In this document: piece after piece, positions 3,094 through 45,145 of the stretch
Layout of the letters: each line of letters starts with the position of its first letter
Numbering within the stretch: position 1 is the first letter of the stretch
Source: Acidobacteriota bacterium
GTDB taxonomy: Bacteria > Acidobacteriota > JAAYUB01
Length of the DNA stretch: 45,627 bases
Assembly (NCBI GenBank): GCA_012517875.1
Contig: JAAYUB010000032.1
Span: 1 to 45,627 of the forward strand
Direction: 5' to 3'
Position numbers and translations under genes: made by a program
The notes under the pieces: generated by a model
Database searches by the model: none
What the model was told of the DNA's origin: nothing
The model's input: the letters and a program-made list of their open reading frames with translations, nothing else

Positions 3094-4125
3094 TCAGCTG
3101 GTGCGCCCCTGCCGCTCAAACAGTTCGTCCAGCCGGGCCCGGACTGCGGCGATCACCGACTCCACGGTGCCCGGCAGCATGCAGCCGGAGGCGCGGGGAT
3201 GACCGCCCCCGAGCGGCGTCAGGCTGCGGGCGAACTCGCCCACGTTCACGGCGCCCCGCGAGCGGAACGAGATGCGGACGTTGCCGCCCGGCTGCTCCAC
3301 GAAGAGCAGGCTCACCTCGACGCCGTTGATGAAGCAGATCTCGTCGATGATGTCGCCGGTGTCCTCGGTGGTGGCGCCCGTGCGACGGATCATCTCCAGA
3401 TCCATCACCGACCAGATGTAGCGTCCGTGCGGGTCGCGCTCCATCCGGTTCAGCACCAGACCCAGCAGCTTCTTCATCGCGTAACTGCGCACCAGGTGCA
3501 CCCGCTCGGCGGTGTCGGGGAAATTGAAGCCGGTTTCCAGCAGCCGGGCCGCCACCCGGTGCGATGACGGCCGGGTCAGGTCGTACTGGAAGGCGCCGGT
3601 GTCGCACAGGATGCCCACGTAGATGAGGTCGGCCAGCCGGACGTCCAGGGGAATCCGCCACGTGGGATCGTCGACGAAAGCGAACAGCACCTCCGTGGTG
3701 GAAGCGACCTGACTGCTGCAGATCTCGATGTCGTAGGTGCCGGCGTTGCCGAACGCGTGGTGGTCGATCTTCACCCGCACCGGGCACGCCATGAACAGCG
3801 GCCGGACCCGCCCCGCGCGGTCGGCGCCGCAGTCGACCACGATCCCCAGGTCGTAGCCCGTTGCGGCCGCCTCGGCCCGGTCCACCGGGACGATCTCCGG
3901 GGCGCCGTGCAGGAACAGGAAACGGGCCGGACAGGGGCGCTCGTTGACGACGTGGATGACCTTACCGCTGCCGGGAAATGCCTGCTCCAGCATGTACTTG
4001 ACGGCCAGCTCGGCCGCAACGGAGTCGCCGTCCTCCCGTTCGGTGGCCGTGATCAGGACCCGGTCGGCCTGCCGCGCGGCGTCATGGAGGCGCTTCAATT
4101 CCGGTTCGAACATGAGATGCCCCAT
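3094..4125 (-). CDS. DHH family phosphoesterase, NrnA-like (oligoribonuclease / pAp phosphatase family)
   Basis: 343-residue DHH-DHHA1 protein. Family members degrade nano-RNA or 3'-phosphoadenosine 5'-phosphate with Mn2+. Seen: EDGDSVAAELA (31-41, motif I), VVDCG (97-101), KIDHHAFGN (119-127, motif III), an S-x3-T-E segment (ASTTEVLF), and GGGHPRASG near residue 310 for the DHHA1 domain. The usual His of motif I (H-x-N-P-D-G-D) is replaced by Thr in TATEREDGD, while both Asp are kept. Neither ATG 4125 nor ATG 4113 has a strong Shine-Dalgarno. First gene of a probable operon with the SDR and pterin genes. Confidence 0.82.
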   Translation of the reverse strand: MGHLMFEPELKRLHDAARQADRVLITATEREDGDSVAAELAVKYMLEQAFPGSGKVIHVVNERPCPARFLFLHGAPEIVPVDRAEAAATGYDLGIVVDCGADRAGRVRPLFMACPVRVKIDHHAFGNAGTYDIEICSSQVASTTEVLFAFVDDPTWRIPLDVRLADLIYVGILCDTGAFQYDLTRPSSHRVAARLLETGFNFPDTAERVHLVRSYAMKKLLGLVLNRMERDPHGRYIWSVMDLEMIRRTGATTEDTGDIIDEICFINGVEVSLLFVEQPGGNVRISFRSRGAVNVGEFARSLTPLGGGHPRASGCMLPGTVESVIAAVRARLDELFERQGRTS

Positions 4126-4170
4126 CCGACGGAGAAATAACTGGTCATGTTACCAAAGGGCACGGCCGAT

Positions 4171-4208
4171 TGAAAACAAAAAAGGGACCAACCCCATGGG
4201 CCGGTCCC
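4171..4208 (-). terminator. Intrinsic terminator after the DUF7662-SHOCT gene
   Basis: On the minus strand GGGACCGGCCC (4208-4198) pairs, with two G-U pairs, with GGGTTGGTCCC around an ATG loop. TTTTTTGTTTTCA follows at 4183-4171. It sits about 45 bases after the stop at 4255 and just before the next minus-strand gene. Confidence 0.85.
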
Positions 4209-4254
4209 AATCCTGTTGCAGTCGCAGTACTCGCTTCGGCAGCCGCCGGTCTTT

Positions 4255-4677
4255 TTAGAGCAGGGCCAGCAGCCGGCTCTTTTTCTCTTCGAATTCGTCT
4301 GCGGTGATCAGCCCCTCCACCATCAGGGCCTGCAGATCCTTGATGATCCCCGGAATGTCGGCGACATCCAGCGACATCATGATCTCGAACAGGTCCCCCA
4401 CCTCCACGGCCTCCTTAACCCTCTTGCGCGGTTTCGGCTTGTCCTCACCGCGACGGAAGGACACCGATTCGCCCAGCTTGACGGCGTCCACCAGCCAGTT
4501 CACGCGCAGCCAGAACTTGGAGCCGCCTCTCTTGCCGTTGGACCACCAGGCCCGGTGCTTGTAGGCGGAATCCGGCAGCTTGAACGTGGCCAGTTCTTCC
4601 ATCTGGTCGTAGGTCAGGCTGACGGCGCTCTCTTTCAATGCGGCCAAATACTTCTCGATCGGTTCGTACTTGCTCAC
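4255..4677 (-). CDS. DUF7662 domain protein with C-terminal SHOCT domain
   Basis: 140-residue cytoplasmic protein. Residues 4-60 resemble a DUF7662-type domain (YEPIEKYLAAL, KLPDSAYKHRAWWSN), whose function I do not know. Residues 70-90 are a basic Lys/Arg/Pro linker. The end (IIKDLQALMVEGLITADEF) is a SHOCT domain, a short helical oligomerisation module. Translation starts at GTG 4677 behind a strong AGGAGG, 42 nt below a near-consensus promoter. It is monocistronic, with its own promoter and terminator, in a stretch otherwise rich in core genes. The adjoining AT-rich DNA hints at later acquisition. Confidence 0.8.
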   Translation of the reverse strand: MSKYEPIEKYLAALKESAVSLTYDQMEELATFKLPDSAYKHRAWWSNGKRGGSKFWLRVNWLVDAVKLGESVSFRRGEDKPKPRKRVKEAVEVGDLFEIMMSLDVADIPGIIKDLQALMVEGLITADEFEEKKSRLLALL

Positions 4678-4689
4678 GTTCGGAACCTC

Positions 4690-4885
4690 CTGTTGAAAAC
4701 AATTTCTGATATGAATGCAAAAGTGATTATAATTCGACTAATTACATTTATCAATAATTTTTACCCAAAAATCATTTATTTTCAATGTATTTTTCCAGCC
4801 AGATCCATAATCTACTCTAGAATAAGACGTTACGAATACACTCCAAACGCTCAATACATATATAATCATAATTAAGATTGGGGCG
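4690..4885. other. AT-rich intergenic stretch
   Basis: About 200 bases of strikingly AT-rich DNA in a strongly GC-rich window, between the divergent DUF7662-SHOCT and def genes. It holds the minus-strand promoter at 4726-4754 and several TATAAT-like words, such as 4861-4866 on the plus strand, without a matching -35. No ORF, tRNA or clear inverted repeat is visible. The rest of the gap, 4886-4983, contains the def ribosome-binding site and nothing else I can support. Confidence 0.7.
4726..4754 (-). promoter_or_regulatory. Sigma70-type promoter of the DUF7662-SHOCT gene
   Basis: Minus-strand TTGATA (4754-4749), a 17-base spacer and TATAAT (4731-4726) give a near-consensus housekeeping promoter. 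The expected transcript start is about 40 nt upstream of GTG 4677. Confidence 0.8.
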
Positions 4886-4983
4886 GTGTCCGAACAGAAT
4901 CTTGTGGCGGACATCTGCTCATTTTTGTATCATATTCATCGTCCGGTGCATCTCACTTGGCGAGAGTGCGTGGGAGTACTTCC

Positions 4984-5517
4984 ATGATATTGCCCATCAA
5001 GGTGTACGGCGATCCGGTGCTTCGGCGCAAAGCCGCTCCCGTCAACGCCTTCGATGACGCGCTGACCCGCCTGGCGGCGGACATGGCCGAGACCATGTAC
5101 CATGCGCCCGGCATCGGTCTGGCGGCGCCGCAGGTGGGCGTGAGCCTGCGGCTCATCGTCGTGGATATCTCCCATGGCGACTTCAAGGACCGCCTCTATG
5201 TGATGGCCAACCCGGAAGTGATCGAGACAGCCGCCGAAACCGATCGCTGCGAGGAGGGGTGCCTGAGCGTGCCCGATTTCACGGAATCGGTGGTCCGCCC
5301 GCGCTGGGCCCGCATCCGCGGCCAGGACCTGCAGGGCAACACCTACGAGGTGGACGCCCATGACCTGCTGGCCCGCTGTTTTCTCCACGAGATCGACCAC
5401 CTCGACGGGGTGCTGTTCGTCGACCGGATCATGGCGTTCCGCCGCCGGCTGGCCCGGCAGCGTCTCAAGAAACACTTCGGCACCGTTTCTCTCCCCGACG
5501 CCACATTGGCCCTCTGA
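4984..5517 (+). CDS. def: Peptide deformylase
   Basis: 177-residue Fe2+/Zn2+ hydrolase that removes the N-formyl group from nascent proteins. All three motifs are intact: GIGLAAPQVG (43-52), EEGCLS (90-95, metal ligand Cys93) and HEIDHLDG (135-142, ligands His135/His139, catalytic Glu136). The ATG at 4984 has GGGAG seven bases upstream; a TTG nine codons earlier has no ribosome site. First gene of def-fmt-rsmB, so the genes that add and remove the formyl group are adjacent. 63 bases separate it from fmt. Confidence 0.97.
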   Translation: MILPIKVYGDPVLRRKAAPVNAFDDALTRLAADMAETMYHAPGIGLAAPQVGVSLRLIVVDISHGDFKDRLYVMANPEVIETAAETDRCEEGCLSVPDFTESVVRPRWARIRGQDLQGNTYEVDAHDLLARCFLHEIDHLDGVLFVDRIMAFRRRLARQRLKKHFGTVSLPDATLAL

Positions 5518-5543
5518 ATCCCTTACGCGCAACGGCGGAAATC

Positions 5544-5552
5544 TGGGATAAT
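5544..5552 (+). promoter_or_regulatory. Possible extended -10 promoter before fmt
   Basis: TGGGATAAT is an extended -10 (TGn then GATAAT) in the def-fmt gap. It has no convincing -35 and lies about 30 bases before the fmt start. Confidence 0.35.
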
Positions 5553-5580
5553 AGCGCAGCCCCACCCGGGCGGAGGCCGT

Positions 5581-6522
5581 ATGCGCATCGCGTTCATGGG
5601 TTCCAGCGAATTTTCCGTCACTTCGCTGGCCGCGCTCGTCGACACCGGCGAGACGGTGGCCGCGGTGATCACCCAGCCCGACCGGCCGGCGGGCCGCGGT
5701 CTCAGGGTAACGCCGTCACCGGTGAAGCAGTTCGCGACGGCGCAGGGTCTGCCGGTGTTTCAGTACGCGTCCATGAAGAGCGCGGAGGCGCACGCGGGGC
5801 TGGTCGCCCTGCAGCCCGACCTCCTGGTGGTGGCCGCCTACGGCCAGATTCTGCCCCAGCGGATCCTCGACGTGCCGCGGATCGCGCCTCTGAACGTCCA
5901 TGCCTCGCTGCTGCCCCGCTACCGCGGCGCCGCGCCCATCGCCTGGGCGATCCTGCAGGGGGAGACCCGCACAGGCGTCTCCATCATGCGGATCGTCCGC
6001 CGGCTCGACGCCGGCGACGTCCTGGTGCAGCGGCCGGAGCCGATCCGGCCCGACGACACGGCCGCCACCCTCCACGACCGGCTCAAGGAGCTGGGCGCCC
6101 GCTGCCTGCTGGAGGCGTTGGAGCTGATCCGGGCCGGCCGGGCCACCTACACGCCGCAGGACGAATCGGCCGCCACCTACGCCCCGTCGCTGGGCCGGGA
6201 GATGGCCCGGCTCGACTGGACCCAACCGGCGCGCGAGACTCTGAACCGGATCCGCGGCCTCAATCCCTGGCCGGTGGCCCAGACCACCTTCCGCGGCCAG
6301 ACCTGCAAGATCTGGCTCGCCGAACCGGCGGAGGCGCCTGACGGCGATTCGCGGACGGTTCAGCCAGGCCGGCTCCGGCTCGCCGGCCGGCGCCTGGCGG
6401 TCCAGGCCGGCGACGGCGCCTGGCTGCATCTGCTCGAATTGCAACTGCCGGGCCGCGCCGCCGTGGACGGCGAGGCGTTCGCCCGAGGCGCCCGGATCGC
6501 CGAGGGGGACGCGTTTGCCTAG
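5581..6522 (+). CDS. fmt: Methionyl-tRNA formyltransferase
   Basis: 313 residues, the usual length. It formylates Met-tRNAi using 10-formyltetrahydrofolate. The N-terminal hydrolase domain has QPDRPAGRG (32-40), NVHASLLPRYRGAAPI (105-120, catalytic Asn105/His107) and LDAGDVL (142-148, Asp143). The C-terminal OB-like tRNA-binding domain follows from about residue 205 (IRGLNPWP). GGAGG sits just upstream of the ATG. Its TAG overlaps the TTG start of rsmB by 8 bases. Confidence 0.97.
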   Translation: MRIAFMGSSEFSVTSLAALVDTGETVAAVITQPDRPAGRGLRVTPSPVKQFATAQGLPVFQYASMKSAEAHAGLVALQPDLLVVAAYGQILPQRILDVPRIAPLNVHASLLPRYRGAAPIAWAILQGETRTGVSIMRIVRRLDAGDVLVQRPEPIRPDDTAATLHDRLKELGARCLLEALELIRAGRATYTPQDESAATYAPSLGREMARLDWTQPARETLNRIRGLNPWPVAQTTFRGQTCKIWLAEPAEAPDGDSRTVQPGRLRLAGRRLAVQAGDGAWLHLLELQLPGRAAVDGEAFARGARIAEGDAFA

Positions 6523-36343: not shown

Positions 36344-36445
36344 TCTCCCGCCCGGCGCCTCCCGCGCTGCGGCCTCTGTTCAGAACGGGTGGCCCGACGA
36401 CCCGATTTGCGCGATGTGGTGAATTTGATCCCGTCAAGGCAACGA

Positions 36446-37630
36446 ATGACTAAAAGCGTTCTCAAGCCCATGATCGGCTCCGTATTGCTTCTGATCGCCC
36501 TGTCGGCGCTGTGGGCGCTCACCGGCAGCCCGTTCCGAAAACCCCCTCGCCACGTCATCCTCATGATCGGTGACGGAATGGGCATCAACTCCTGGGTGCA
36601 CGCCCACTATTTCCGGTTCGGGGCCACGGCCGATTCGCAGGACGACCGCTTGGCCATGGAATCCCTCCCGGTCACCGGCCTGGCCTACACGCACTCGGCC
36701 GACAACCTGACGACCGATTCCGCAGCCTCGGCCTCCGCGCTGTGCACCGGACGGAAGGTGCTCAACGGCGATCTCTCGGTGGCTCCGGACGGCGCAGTGC
36801 TTCCGACGGTCTTCGAAGAAGCCGCCCACGAGGGGCTTGCTGTCGGGCTGGTGACTACCGGACCGGTCACGCACGCCACCCCCGCGGCGGCGTACGCCCA
36901 CGTACCCGAGCGGAACAACTACCACCAGATCTTCGACTGGCTGCTCCGCACCAGACCGGACCTGGTGTTGGGCAGTGGCACCACCGCCCGCTGGCGGCAT
37001 CTGCCGTCCGACTTCGCCCGACGGGCCCGCGCTGCCGGCTACACGGTCTGCACGAGCGCCGAAGCGCTCCAATCCGCCCGGTCGCTGCCGCTGCTGGGCG
37101 TGTTCGGCGGCGAGCGCCTCCCTTACGAGTGGGACTGGGGCAAAGACACCATGGCTTTGCCGCACCTTTCCGATCTTGTATCAGCGGCTCTGGACCGGCT
37201 TGGTTCGGATCCGGACGGTTTCATCCTCATGATCGAAGGCGGCTCCATCGACACGGCCAACCACGACAATTCGCTGGAACGGGCGGTGGGCGAGGTGCTG
37301 GAGTTCGACCGCTGCGTGGGACTGGTTCAGGAATGGGTGAAGGCCCACAGCTCCTGGAACAACGCGCTGCTCGTCGTGACCGCCGACCACGAAACGGGCG
37401 AGCTGTCGGTGCGCCAACCCGGCAAGCCGTCTCCCCGCGGTCCGGCCCCTTCCTTCAGCCCCGGCGTCGCCCTGCCGGCGAACACGTTTGCGGGCGGCGG
37501 CTACGGCTCGGACGATCATTCGGCCGCGGTGGTGGCGGTTTTCGCCCAGGGCGCGGGCAGCAGCGACCTGAGCGGCGTGATGGACAACACCCGAATCCAC
37601 AAAGTGCTGCGCCAAGCAGTCAAACCGTGA
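36446..37630 (+). CDS. Alkaline phosphatase, exported
   Basis: 394-residue phosphomonoesterase of the PhoA superfamily with an N-terminal signal peptide or anchor (about 8-27). Metal and catalytic residues seen: LMIGDGMG (Asp43), TTDSAASASALCTG (Asp91-Ser92 nucleophile), VTHATPAA (His143), IEGGSIDTANHDN (Glu264, Asp269, His273), TADHETG (Asp314, His315) and a late GSDDHSA His. All are intact, so it should release phosphate in the periplasm. ATG 36446 gives the short N-terminus; an upstream in-frame start at 36389 adds 19 unrelated residues. Confidence 0.92.
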   Translation: MTKSVLKPMIGSVLLLIALSALWALTGSPFRKPPRHVILMIGDGMGINSWVHAHYFRFGATADSQDDRLAMESLPVTGLAYTHSADNLTTDSAASASALCTGRKVLNGDLSVAPDGAVLPTVFEEAAHEGLAVGLVTTGPVTHATPAAAYAHVPERNNYHQIFDWLLRTRPDLVLGSGTTARWRHLPSDFARRARAAGYTVCTSAEALQSARSLPLLGVFGGERLPYEWDWGKDTMALPHLSDLVSAALDRLGSDPDGFILMIEGGSIDTANHDNSLERAVGEVLEFDRCVGLVQEWVKAHSSWNNALLVVTADHETGELSVRQPGKPSPRGPAPSFSPGVALPANTFAGGGYGSDDHSAAVVAVFAQGAGSSDLSGVMDNTRIHKVLRQAVKP

Positions 37631-37664: not shown

Positions 37665-38135
37665 ATGACACCACCGCGTCTGTACACCCGTCACCTCATC
37701 GAAGCACTCGTCGAGCCGGGGCTGGACGATCTCTACGCCGGACTGGTCATCGGCCGGCGCACCCGCCGGGTGGATCTCCCCGGCCGGGTATGCCGGGCCG
37801 GAATCATGAAGACCCTGCTCGGCTACGAGGTCAAGTTCGGCAGCTGCCGCAAGAGCTGCCCCGACGAGGTGACCGCCCGCTACCTGGCGATCTTCGGCAG
37901 CCTGGGTCTCAACTCGGTTCTCATCCCGTACAACCCGGTGGAGACGGCTGCGGTCCTGCCCGTGATGGAGCGCGCCTACGCTGCGCTGGAGCCGGCGGTC
38001 CGAACGTTCGCCGCACAGCACGGGCAACCGGAGCGGACCGCCGCCCTGCGGCGCCGCCTGTTCCGGCGGCTGGCCCAGCGGATCCATACGCTGTCGACCG
38101 GCGCGGTGCTCGCCGGCGAGGACGGCGCCCCATGA
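37665..38135 (+). CDS. Hypothetical protein coupled to an Fe-S protein gene
   Basis: 156-residue protein that I do not recognise. The central block looks conserved-like: CRAGIMKTLLGYEVKFGSCR, then KSCPDEVTARYLAIF and LGLNSVLIPYNPVE. It has three cysteines (about 43, 60, 64), two in a C-x3-C spacing that could bind a cluster or form a disulfide. Predicted helical, no signal peptide or membrane span. The last codons overlap the ATG of the next gene (ATGA), a sign that the two products work together. Its own start has no clear ribosome site, and it follows the phosphatase by 34 bases. Confidence 0.6.
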   Translation: MTPPRLYTRHLIEALVEPGLDDLYAGLVIGRRTRRVDLPGRVCRAGIMKTLLGYEVKFGSCRKSCPDEVTARYLAIFGSLGLNSVLIPYNPVETAAVLPVMERAYAALEPAVRTFAAQHGQPERTAALRRRLFRRLAQRIHTLSTGAVLAGEDGAP

Positions 38136-39271
38136 GCCGTCGGCGCCGCACGGCGCCAACCACTCGGCCGCCGGCCGTACCCGCCGGCGACGCCTCGTGG
38201 ACATCCCTGCGGGAGTCGCTGGCCGGCTGTGTCAACTGCGGCAAATGTCTGCCGGACTGTCCGCTGTACCAGCTCTCCCGCCGTGAAGAAGACGGTGTCC
38301 GCGGCAAGCTCAACGTCCTGCGCTGGCAGATGGACGCAGGGCTCCCCCCGTCGCCCGCCGCCACGCGCCTGTTCTGGCGCTGCCTGCTGTGCCTGCGCTG
38401 TCAGGACGCCTGCCCCTCGGGCCTCGAGCTGGTGCGGATCCTGGATGCCGCGCGGACCGCTCTGCACGCCCGCGGCCTGGCGCCCGTCCCCGGCCGGCCG
38501 GGCGCGCGGAGGGCCGCCCTCATCGTCCGCGCCGTCCGGCGGAACCGGGCCGCTCCGGTGCGCCTGCCTCTGCGGCCGCGGACGTCCTTACTACCCTTGC
38601 CGCCGGTCGGCGACGGCCGTCCGGCGCCGCTGCTGGTAAGCCCTCTGGGCCGCGTGGTGTGGGGAGGAGCGCTGGTCGCCGCGGCGGCGCTCTTCCGTCG
38701 GGGCGGCTTCGATCCGGTCGTCCAGGTGCTGCGCGGCCCCAGTCCCGTCCGGCTGCACTGGCGAGGTGACGCCGACGGGTTGCGGACCGTTCTGGCCGCC
38801 GCGTTCACCGGCGCCCCGAAGCCGACGACGCTGCTCTTTCTGGAACCGGAGCTGGCGGCTCTGTGGCGGGCGCACGGCGCGCCGGCCCAGGTGATCGATC
38901 TGGAGGACTGGCTCCTCAGCGGCGGCGCAGCGGTCCGACTGGATGCCCCACCCGTCACCGCGCTGCCGGCGCCCGTGCCCATGGCCGCTGCCGGCTGGCG
39001 GGACTGGCTGGCGCAGTGGCGCGGACTGGCCCCGGCCGCATGGCGGCCGCCGCCGGCCGAAAGCCAGGGGCTACGCGCCGAGCAGCTGGTATCCATTGAT
39101 CCGCCCGTCGCGCGCGATCTGGCGCGGCGCTGGTTGCGGCTGGCCGGCGCGACCGGCGCCGAGGCGGTGGCGCTCACCTCGCCGCGCACCCAGAGCTGGC
39201 TCCGGAGCGGCGGCGACGCCGGCCTCCCGCTGCGACCGCTCGCCATCCTCGCCGCGGGCGGCCCAGCTTGA
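38132..39271 (+). CDS. Iron-sulfur protein, GlcF/LutA-like N-terminus, without CCG cysteines
   Basis: 379 residues. After a Pro/Arg start, two 4Fe-4S motifs appear: CVNCGKCLPDCP (about 31-42) and CLLCLRCQDACPSG (about 88-101), as in GlcF, LutA and HdrD-type electron-transfer subunits. Those proteins continue with one or two cysteine-rich CCG domains. Here the remaining 275 residues have no cysteine at all, although stretches such as GALVAAAALFRRGGFDPV keep the CCG-domain pattern. ATG 38132 overlaps the previous stop. It may be an electron carrier that lost the catalytic CCG site; its partner and substrate are unknown. The frame is open further upstream but without similarity. Confidence 0.75.
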   Translation: MSRRRRTAPTTRPPAVPAGDASWTSLRESLAGCVNCGKCLPDCPLYQLSRREEDGVRGKLNVLRWQMDAGLPPSPAATRLFWRCLLCLRCQDACPSGLELVRILDAARTALHARGLAPVPGRPGARRAALIVRAVRRNRAAPVRLPLRPRTSLLPLPPVGDGRPAPLLVSPLGRVVWGGALVAAAALFRRGGFDPVVQVLRGPSPVRLHWRGDADGLRTVLAAAFTGAPKPTTLLFLEPELAALWRAHGAPAQVIDLEDWLLSGGAAVRLDAPPVTALPAPVPMAAAGWRDWLAQWRGLAPAAWRPPPAESQGLRAEQLVSIDPPVARDLARRWLRLAGATGAEAVALTSPRTQSWLRSGGDAGLPLRPLAILAAGGPA

Positions 39272-43288: not shown

Positions 43289-44167
43289 ATGGCAACCATG
43301 AATCGCAAACCACATTCACCGCAATCCAGCGCCCCTGCGGGCGCCGAATCGTCCCGGGCCCCCGGCAGCCCGGGCGGCTGCCCCTATGCGCCCATGGCGT
43401 GTGAACTGGAAATGTTCCGCCACATCCACCACGTCCGCGGCTTTGGAGAGGTGGACTCCACCAACTCCACGGCCCGCGCGCTCGGGGAGGCCGGCGACAT
43501 TCCGCCGGGCACCCTGGTGGTGGCCAACGCCCAGCGCGCCGGGCGGGGCCGCCTGGACCACACCTGGTACTCTCCGGCCGGCCAGGGGATCTATGCCTCG
43601 CTGTTTCTGGCACCCATGGTGACGCTGGCGCAGGCGCACTGCGTGACCCTGGTGACAGGGCTGTCGGTGGCCCAGGCCCTGTCCCTGGCCCACCCGACGC
43701 TGGCCCGCCACCTCGACATCAAGTGGCCCAACGACGTCCTGTGGCAGGGCCGCAAGCTGGGCGGCATTCTCGTGGAGTCCAGCCTCCAGGACAACACCCT
43801 CCGGCACCTTGTGGTGGGAATCGGGATCAACGTGGCGCAGACGGCTTTCCCCGAGGACATCCGAACCCGCGCCGTCTCGGTGGCTCAGGCCGCCGGCACC
43901 ATCGTCTCCCGGCACGATCTGCTGGTGCGCGTTCTGGGCTGTCTCGACGCAAACCTCGGCCGCTTGGGCGACGGCGCCTGGCCGGACCTGCGCCGGCAGT
44001 GGGAGGAGTCCTCCTCGTTTGCCCGCGGCCGCAAGGTCAAGTTCTTCGAACGGGGCCGACCGCTCCTGGGCACCACCTGCGGTCTGATGGACGACGGGGC
44101 GCTCGGCGTGCAGCTGCGGGACGGTGAGCGCAAGGCGCTCTACCACGGCGAAATATTCGAATACTGA
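43289..44167 (+). CDS. birA: Biotin--[acetyl-CoA-carboxylase] ligase
   Basis: 292-residue enzyme that makes biotinyl-AMP and biotinylates the carboxyl carrier protein. Seen: GEVDSTNSTARAL, QRAGRGRLDHTWYSPAGQGI (the ATP/biotin loop, normally GRGR-x-GR), DIKWPNDVLWQGRKLGGILV, and HLVVGIGINVAQ. The N-terminal HTH repressor domain of E. coli BirA is absent, so this is the monofunctional type. About 38 N-terminal residues rich in Ser/Pro/Ala precede the catalytic domain; ATG 43289 has only a weak ribosome site and a later start is possible. Confidence 0.93.
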   Translation: MATMNRKPHSPQSSAPAGAESSRAPGSPGGCPYAPMACELEMFRHIHHVRGFGEVDSTNSTARALGEAGDIPPGTLVVANAQRAGRGRLDHTWYSPAGQGIYASLFLAPMVTLAQAHCVTLVTGLSVAQALSLAHPTLARHLDIKWPNDVLWQGRKLGGILVESSLQDNTLRHLVVGIGINVAQTAFPEDIRTRAVSVAQAAGTIVSRHDLLVRVLGCLDANLGRLGDGAWPDLRRQWEESSSFARGRKVKFFERGRPLLGTTCGLMDDGALGVQLRDGERKALYHGEIFEY

Positions 44168-44182
44168 ACGGGATGTGACATC

Positions 44183-45145
44183 ATGGTGACCGGCTTCTTC
44201 AACAAGCTCAAACACGCGGTCAAGAACACCAAGGACCAGTTGGTGGGCCGCATCGAGAACCTGATCCTGGGCGAGAAGCAGTTCAGCGCCTCGACGCTGG
44301 AGCAGCTCGAGACCATCCTCATCGGCGCCGACATCGGGGTCAAGACCACCGAGGAGATCCTGGACCGCGTCCGGCAGGCGGTCTCCCGCGACGCCCTGCA
44401 CGATTTCGACACTCTGGCCGGCCTGATCAAGGGCACCCTGCTCGAGATCCTCTCCCAGCCCGCCGCGGCGCCGGCGGGCCCGGCCAAGCCGGGGCCGGCC
44501 AAACCGATGCCGGTCGCCCCGCTGGACGGTCAGCCGCGGGTGGTGTTCATCGTGGGCGTCAACGGCGTGGGCAAGACCACCACCATCGGCAAGCTGGCGC
44601 ACCGGCTCAGCCAAGCCGGCCGGAAGGTGGTCATCTGCGCCTCCGACACTTTCCGCGCCGCGGCCATCGAGCAGGTGGAGATCTGGGCCCAGCGCTCCGG
44701 CGCGTCGCTGATCAAGAAGAGCCAGGGCGCCGACCCCGCTGCGGTGCTGCACGATTCGCTGGACGTCGCCGCGCGGGACCGCGCCGACGTGGTCATCGTG
44801 GACACCGCCGGCCGGCTCCACACCAAAACCAACCTGATGAAGGAGTTGGAAAAGATGCACCGCCTGGCCGCCAAGCGGGTGCCGGGAGCCCCCCACGATG
44901 TCTACCTCATCATCGACGCCACCACCGGCCAAAACGGCCTGGTCCAGGCCCGCGAATTTCTCAAGACCACGGGCGTCACGGGACTCATCGTGACGAAGCT
45001 CGACGGCACCGCCAAGGGGGGGGTCGTCGTGGCGATCGCCCGCGAGCTCCGGCTGCCCATCCGCTACGTGGGCGTAGGCGAGAAAATGGAAGATCTCATC
45101 GACTTCAGTCCCGAGGACTTCGTCGAATCCCTCTTCGCTTCTTAG
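44183..45145 (+). CDS. ftsY: Signal recognition particle receptor FtsY
   Basis: 320-residue SRP GTPase that docks ribosome-SRP complexes at the membrane. The N domain (1-90) includes LETILIGADIGVKTTEEILD. After a short Ala/Pro linker comes the G domain: GVNGVGKTTTIGKLA (125-139), SDTFRAAAIEQ (insertion box), DTAGRLHTKTNLM, DATTGQN, TKLDGTAKGG and GVGEKMEDL. The long acidic A domain of E. coli FtsY is missing, as in many bacteria. 15 bases after birA. Confidence 0.97.
   Translation: MVTGFFNKLKHAVKNTKDQLVGRIENLILGEKQFSASTLEQLETILIGADIGVKTTEEILDRVRQAVSRDALHDFDTLAGLIKGTLLEILSQPAAAPAGPAKPGPAKPMPVAPLDGQPRVVFIVGVNGVGKTTTIGKLAHRLSQAGRKVVICASDTFRAAAIEQVEIWAQRSGASLIKKSQGADPAAVLHDSLDVAARDRADVVIVDTAGRLHTKTNLMKELEKMHRLAAKRVPGAPHDVYLIIDATTGQNGLVQAREFLKTTGVTGLIVTKLDGTAKGGVVVAIARELRLPIRYVGVGEKMEDLIDFSPEDFVESLFAS

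Follow-up and report, generated by a model that had tools for sequence, protein, structure and literature searches.

What does a protein do when it carries a GlcF-like iron-sulfur head and not a single cysteine beyond it? The question is raised by two overlapping genes, p1 and p2, in a 45,627-nucleotide stretch of DNA from an Acidobacteriota bacterium, referred to here as the window. A first-pass annotation, made from the sequence alone, described p1 as a protein of no recognised family with a C-x3-C pair, and p2 as a GlcF-like protein that had kept both 4Fe-4S motifs and the outline of a CCG domain while losing all CCG cysteines.

Anatomy of p1 and p2

The p2 protein contains exactly eight cysteines, at positions 33, 36, 39 and 43 and at positions 84, 87, 90 and 94, which form two CxxCxxCxxxC motifs, and its last 285 residues contain none; on both counts the initial description was accurate. 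Pfam and NCBIfam recognise the Fe-S head only, through a match to Fer4_8 (4.3e-12) in Pfam and, as the best NCBIfam model, to GlcF (NF008434, E 2.4e-15), the latter at 56 bits and hence below the equivalog cut-off of 333 bits. The PF02754 matches of genome G000 do not include the p2 locus. The p1 protein matches nothing in Pfam or NCBIfam, as had been anticipated, and contains the C61-x3-C65 pair together with C43.

The two genes are flanked on one side by an alkaline-phosphatase-like gene (36389-37630) and on the other by a gene for a PASTA-domain protein followed by rpe. Neither the FAD subunits GlcD/GlcE nor any other flavoprotein, nor lactate or glycolate genes, neighbour p2 here. Because cysteine has a frequency of 1.08% in 27 other window genes, a run of 285 residues free of it has a probability of about 0.05. 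The cysteine-free run alone is a weak signal; p2 is odd relative to its GlcF-type relatives, not in absolute terms.

Table 1. Features of the p1-p2 locus, in window coordinates.
Feature	Coordinates	Strand	Description
p1	37665..38135	+	156 aa; stand-alone homologue of the C-terminal domain of an Eco57I-type N6-methyltransferase; mostly single-copy acidobacterial family that no Pfam or NCBIfam model describes
p2	38132..39271	+	379 aa; dicluster [4Fe-4S] protein with a cysteine-free C-terminal tail
p1/p2 start/stop overlap, ATGA	38132..38135	+	contains the p2 ATG; same in two congeners
p2 Fe-S head, residues 26-118	38207..38485	+	both CxxCxxCxxxC motifs; GlcF-like; most constrained part of p2
p2 cysteine-free tail, residues 119-379	38486..39268	+	CCG homology not demonstrable

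Distribution of the cysteine-free tail

G004 and G005, two genomes from another family of the same order, encode p2 orthologues of 276 and 279 residues, which have both Fe-S motifs and tails free of cysteine. A tree was built from the heads of the p2 proteins and of 52 further dicluster proteins; it draws on only 97 columns, and its p2 branches are long. In it the five p2 proteins (those of the window genus and of G004 and G005) form one clade with support of 95/91, recovered in 96% of bootstrap trees. The orthologues in the four genomes other than that of the window have zero tail cysteines, one of these proteins having a single stray cysteine. The full-length GlcF/CCG-type relatives that we inspected have at least 7 tail cysteines, usually 8-12 with CCG motifs, of which most have two, and the exceptions among inspected matches are HdrC-like proteins that have no tail or fragments that end at contig ends.

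In the inspected matches from 386 genomes of acidobacteria, no cysteine-free p2 relative came from outside the order, p2 was not found in G003, a genome of the window's own family, and a search with the p2 tail over 297 genomes gave confident matches in the window genus only. As the cysteine-free tails recovered all fall in one p2 clade of the order, a single origin, at the base of the order or earlier, is probable.

Similarity of the tail to CCG domains

The secondary-structure outline of the p2 tail can be read by eye as a CCG domain, as the first-pass annotation did, and our tests give this reading no backing. A profile of 44 CCG tails scores the p2 tail at about -1 bit in hmmsearch. In hhalign the tail scores 21.0 against CCG, where 100 column shuffles reach at most 18.7 and 2 of 600 further shuffles reach 21; unrelated 260-residue pieces of window proteins score up to 21.3, whereas five real CCG tails with their cysteines changed to alanine still score 629. 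Profile alignment compared with shuffles gives a z of 3.0 for the window tail and of 0.4-1.1 for the other four. The AlphaFold model of p2, computed with five sequences, has a pLDDT of 36 and is too poor to judge the fold. A CCG ancestry of the tail thus yields no usable signal, its profile scores being no better than those of unrelated proteins, and such descent cannot be shown from sequence. The accompanying premise that GlcF, LutA and HdrD relatives need CCG clusters went too far, since in FadF and DgcB one of the two CCG-domain clusters is without its cysteines (PMC13083937).

Two further groups of Fe-S proteins were seen in these genomes. An Fe-S protein of this lineage, encoded in G003, G002 and G001 (L040, L041 and L043) and on contig C93 of G000 (L042), is EtfD/FadF-like by eye, and its first CCG domain apparently lacks the CC pair while the second keeps CCG. 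In the acidobacterial family f28 (L206-L210) there are dicluster proteins of ~318 residues with 12-15 further cysteines and an Fe-S architecture unlike that of GlcF.

Conservation and constraint within the genus

Two other species of the genus, both known from public MAGs of acidobacteria (one is named Go_SlDig, apparently after a sludge digester), carry the same overlapping p1-p2 pair without gaps, at 81-84% identity for p2 and 94% for p1. The ATGA overlap, the p2 reading frame and all eight ligand cysteines are intact in the three species. By the NG86 method, dN/dS among these species is 0.09-0.22 for p1, 0.35-0.44 for p2 as a whole and 0.08-0.12 for the neighbouring genes compared. With no gaps among the three species and a p2 dN/dS below 1, the coding of the pair is real. 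Rather than homologues with normal CCG cysteines and a frameshift in the window, the comparison returned gapless orthologues in the two congeners and cysteine-free tails in all five genomes with p2, and a frameshifted or pseudogene p2 was rejected.

Constraint is distributed unevenly along p2. The Fe-S head has an omega of 0.17-0.21, residues 166-283 are moderately constrained (0.23-0.37), and the other tail segments lie mostly at 0.5-0.85, short segments being noisy (0.27-1.52). These values indicate a maintained head and a tail that is relaxed over much of its length. The last quarter of p2 shows no third-position excess, which likewise speaks for weak constraint in that part.

p1 belongs to a widespread acidobacterial family

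Of 396 acidobacterial genomes, 82 encode a member of the p1 family, essentially in a single copy each; they represent 45 of the 210 genera of the phylum. The genes beside p1, compared at 69 loci, vary with the lineage (nuoN, dnaK/dnaJ and others), so p1 is not specific to p2, next to which it was found in the window genus only. The ATGA overlap had been taken to imply a working pair; the pair is indeed conserved in the three species of the genus, but p1 is no dedicated partner of p2, as elsewhere its neighbours are others. The C-x3-C pair is likewise a feature of the genus, and only C65 (in 'CPD') is widely kept. An association of the family with redox functions was considered and rejected, its neighbourhoods being lineage-specific. 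In many genomes of the acidobacterial family f21 (L020, L021, L023 and others) p1 lies directly after or near nuoN; once, in L022, it follows etfBA-like genes, and elsewhere it stands beside dnaK/dnaJ.

The AlphaFold model of p1 is good (pLDDT 86), and a Foldseek comparison with the PDB and viral libraries gave no match with an E-value of 0.001 or below. Its relationship emerged from sequence profiles. The protein is homologous to residues 624-751 of a 756-residue Eco57I-type methyltransferase in G026 (L025:85-2355), which the p1 profile detects at an E-value of 2.6e-14, or of 1.2e-12 when the member L024 is left out. The reverse search from the methyltransferase domain recovers p1 proteins in tens of genomes, with E-values significant in both directions. 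Only the C-terminal domain of such an enzyme has a counterpart in p1, which lacks the N6-methyltransferase catalytic domain. No p1 domain was found in plasmids, phages or viral contigs. In the G026 enzyme, the p1-homologous C-terminal domain is covered by no Pfam model.

A fused dehydratase/activator ATPase adjoins p1 or p2 in relatives

The flavoprotein partner that the first-pass annotation had suggested looking for does not adjoin p2. The context points instead to a fused dehydratase/ATPase that is present in relatives and absent here, a dehydratase/activator-type protein combining HGD-D (2-hydroxyglutaryl-CoA dehydratase D component) and a BadF/BcrA ATPase, which we term HgdBC. In G004 a 600-residue HGD-D and BcrAD_BadFG fusion lies directly upstream of p2 with an ATGA overlap (HgdBC at 3893-5695 and p2 at 5692-6522 of L078), and in G005 the ATPase part of HgdBC, at a contig end, overlaps p2. 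In G003 HgdBC directly follows p1, also with an ATGA overlap; it is orthologous, with 42% identity in the HGD-D part, and is followed by tuf and secE/nusG-like genes with no p2 remnant. HgdBC matches the acyl-CoA dehydratase activase model TIGR00241 above its cut-off, and the G004 protein matches the double-cubane reductase model NF040772 below cut-off. The HGD-D and ATPase parts have three conserved cysteines each, a pattern that would fit one [4Fe-4S] cluster in the dehydratase domain and a bridging activator cluster.

A complete HgdBC was found in G003 and G004 only, that of G005 being cut, and any relative of the HGD-D part in 14 of 396 genomes. No HGD-D domain (PF06050) was found in the three genomes of the window genus, all of them MAGs, so that this absence is not final; only a distant activase-type protein of 1043 residues is present. 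No single genome was found to carry p1, HgdBC and p2 together, and in G004 and G005 no p1 is linked to p2. The adjacency of p1 and HgdBC is seen in one genome and that of HgdBC and p2 in two genomes of one genus. Given the rarity of HgdBC and the essentially single copy of p1 in each genome, chance is an unlikely cause of the three adjacencies. They are separate, and all are consistent with the order p1-fusion-p2, which suggests an ancestral p1-HgdBC-p2 gene order as the simplest reading.

Two observations concern the surroundings of these genes. In the window, BirA-FtsY (43289-45145) follows p1-p2 at a distance of ~4 kb, and in G004 (L078:1966-3883) it lies directly upstream of HgdBC-p2, a hint that the two loci share a chromosomal neighbourhood. 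In other families of acidobacteria, HGD-D-like genes that stand alone (L157-L161) adjoin lipoate/biotin-ligase-like and metallo-beta-lactamase-like genes.

A possible electron donor to HgdBC, and its alternatives

In known systems, the activator cluster takes its electron from a ferredoxin, and the hydrolysis of ATP then drives this electron on to the cluster of the dehydratase (PMC8473912; for the wider family, PMC11971306). A two-cluster, ferredoxin-like p2 coupled by an ATGA overlap to HgdBC would most simply be the donor of HgdBC. Of the marks of such a donor, p2 has the two [4Fe-4S] motifs throughout and linkage to an activator/dehydratase gene in G004 and G005, with none in the window genus. 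Our preferred reading, held tentatively and with slightly less than even confidence, is that p2 was a dedicated electron carrier that served HgdBC in the ancestor of the order, and that HgdBC was later lost from the window genus, leaving p1 and p2.

On this account p2 would assemble and bind two [4Fe-4S] clusters in a ferredoxin-like head of GlcF ancestry, joined to a tail without Fe-S clusters whose role is presumably docking or folding. In the ancestor, p2 most likely gave low-potential electrons to HgdBC, which would spend ATP to drive a single electron into its own dehydratase-type Fe-S domain, and the three genes probably stood consecutively as p1-HgdBC-p2. Loss of HgdBC in the window genus would have left p1 and p2 in direct ATGA overlap. 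With no HGD-D gene in the genus, the p1-p2 pair has the look of a remnant with a constrained Fe-S head (omega about 0.2) and a mostly relaxed tail, and because the head is still under purifying selection p2 probably serves another acceptor.

How much function remains can be put more pessimistically: the pair may be a decaying leftover, with p2 drifting and of little present use since HgdBC was lost. The missing HGD-D and the omega of p2, high overall and higher in most tail segments when set against the neighbouring genes, would suit this, but drift does not sit well with eight ligand cysteines and a reading frame intact in three species, nor with the low omega of the p2 head and of p1, and we consider it unlikely. 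It is also improbable that p2 is a GlcF/FadF-like protein that lost all CCG cysteines and kept the CCG fold as a scaffold, its two cubanes passing electrons that come from an ETF or a flavoprotein dehydrogenase on to some other carrier. GlcF is the closest match of the head, the length of p2 resembles that of shorter acidobacterial CCG proteins (365-385 residues), the best weak tail match sits at the matching end of the CCG profile, and FadF and DgcB provide a precedent for partial loss. Against these stand a tail similarity at background where the cysteine-to-alanine control remains unmistakable, the lack of an adjoining flavoprotein in the stretches read, and the pairing of p2 with HgdBC in relatives.

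The overlap conserved in three species and the homology of p1 to a domain of a DNA-modifying enzyme could alternatively mean that p1 and p2 are a functional pair by themselves, for example a redox-sensing regulator in which p1, with its domain common to DNA methyltransferases, is governed by the p2 clusters. This we regard as very doubtful: nearly all p1-bearing genomes have p1 without p2 and in unrelated neighbourhoods, G004 and G005 have p2 without a linked p1, and the p1 C-x3-C pair is not conserved. A bolder extension of the donor reading, and a rather unlikely one, would make p1, the HGD-D-activator ATPase fusion and the cysteine-free-tail dicluster ferredoxin an undescribed ATP-driven low-potential redox module, whose donor arose when a GlcF-like protein exchanged the CCG part for a docking tail without metal, and in which p1 plays an accessory role as a relative of a methyltransferase domain.

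Should the preferred donor reading be right, p2 would be a probable dedicated electron donor for ATP-driven enzymes of the 2-hydroxyacyl-CoA-dehydratase type, and selection would be seen to maintain a GlcF-type Fe-S head in a protein devoid of CCG cysteines. The homology of p1 also links this acidobacterial protein, which is widespread and unannotated and whose model resembles no solved fold, to a domain of DNA methyltransferases.

Comparison with known systems

Overall, p2 is a lineage-restricted variant of known parts, and a GlcF-like donor for an HGD-D/activator fusion was not found in the literature searched. With the dicluster CCG proteins of the GlcF/LutA/HdrD type, for which NF008434 is the best match, p2 shares two N-terminal [4Fe-4S] motifs that are similarly spaced and flanked, but it differs in having no tail cysteine, no CCG sequence signal and no neighbouring flavoprotein or lactate/glycolate genes. 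The ETF-linked CCG proteins FadF, DgcB and EtfD offer a parallel for cysteine loss, which in FadF and DgcB affects one CCG cluster; there the other is kept, whereas p2 has neither CCG cysteines nor an ETF neighbour. The p1 protein matches the C-terminal domain of Eco57I-type N6-adenine methyltransferases but is free-standing, without a methyltransferase domain.

Like the ferredoxin that reduces the activator of 2-hydroxyacyl-CoA dehydratases, p2 has two [4Fe-4S] motifs, and in the relatives G004 and G005 its gene is linked to an activator/dehydratase gene. Unlike that ferredoxin, p2 has an extra tail of 200-285 residues and would be a dedicated gene product with a fused HGD-D-activator as its putative partner. 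Like the double-cubane cluster protein with its reductase and the BzdNO benzoyl-CoA reductase, the HgdBC of the relatives has HGD-D and activator domains; in contrast to them it is one fused chain, scores below the NF040772 cut-off and has only three conserved cysteines in its HGD-D part, which would fit a single [4Fe-4S] cluster better than an [8Fe-9S] cluster.
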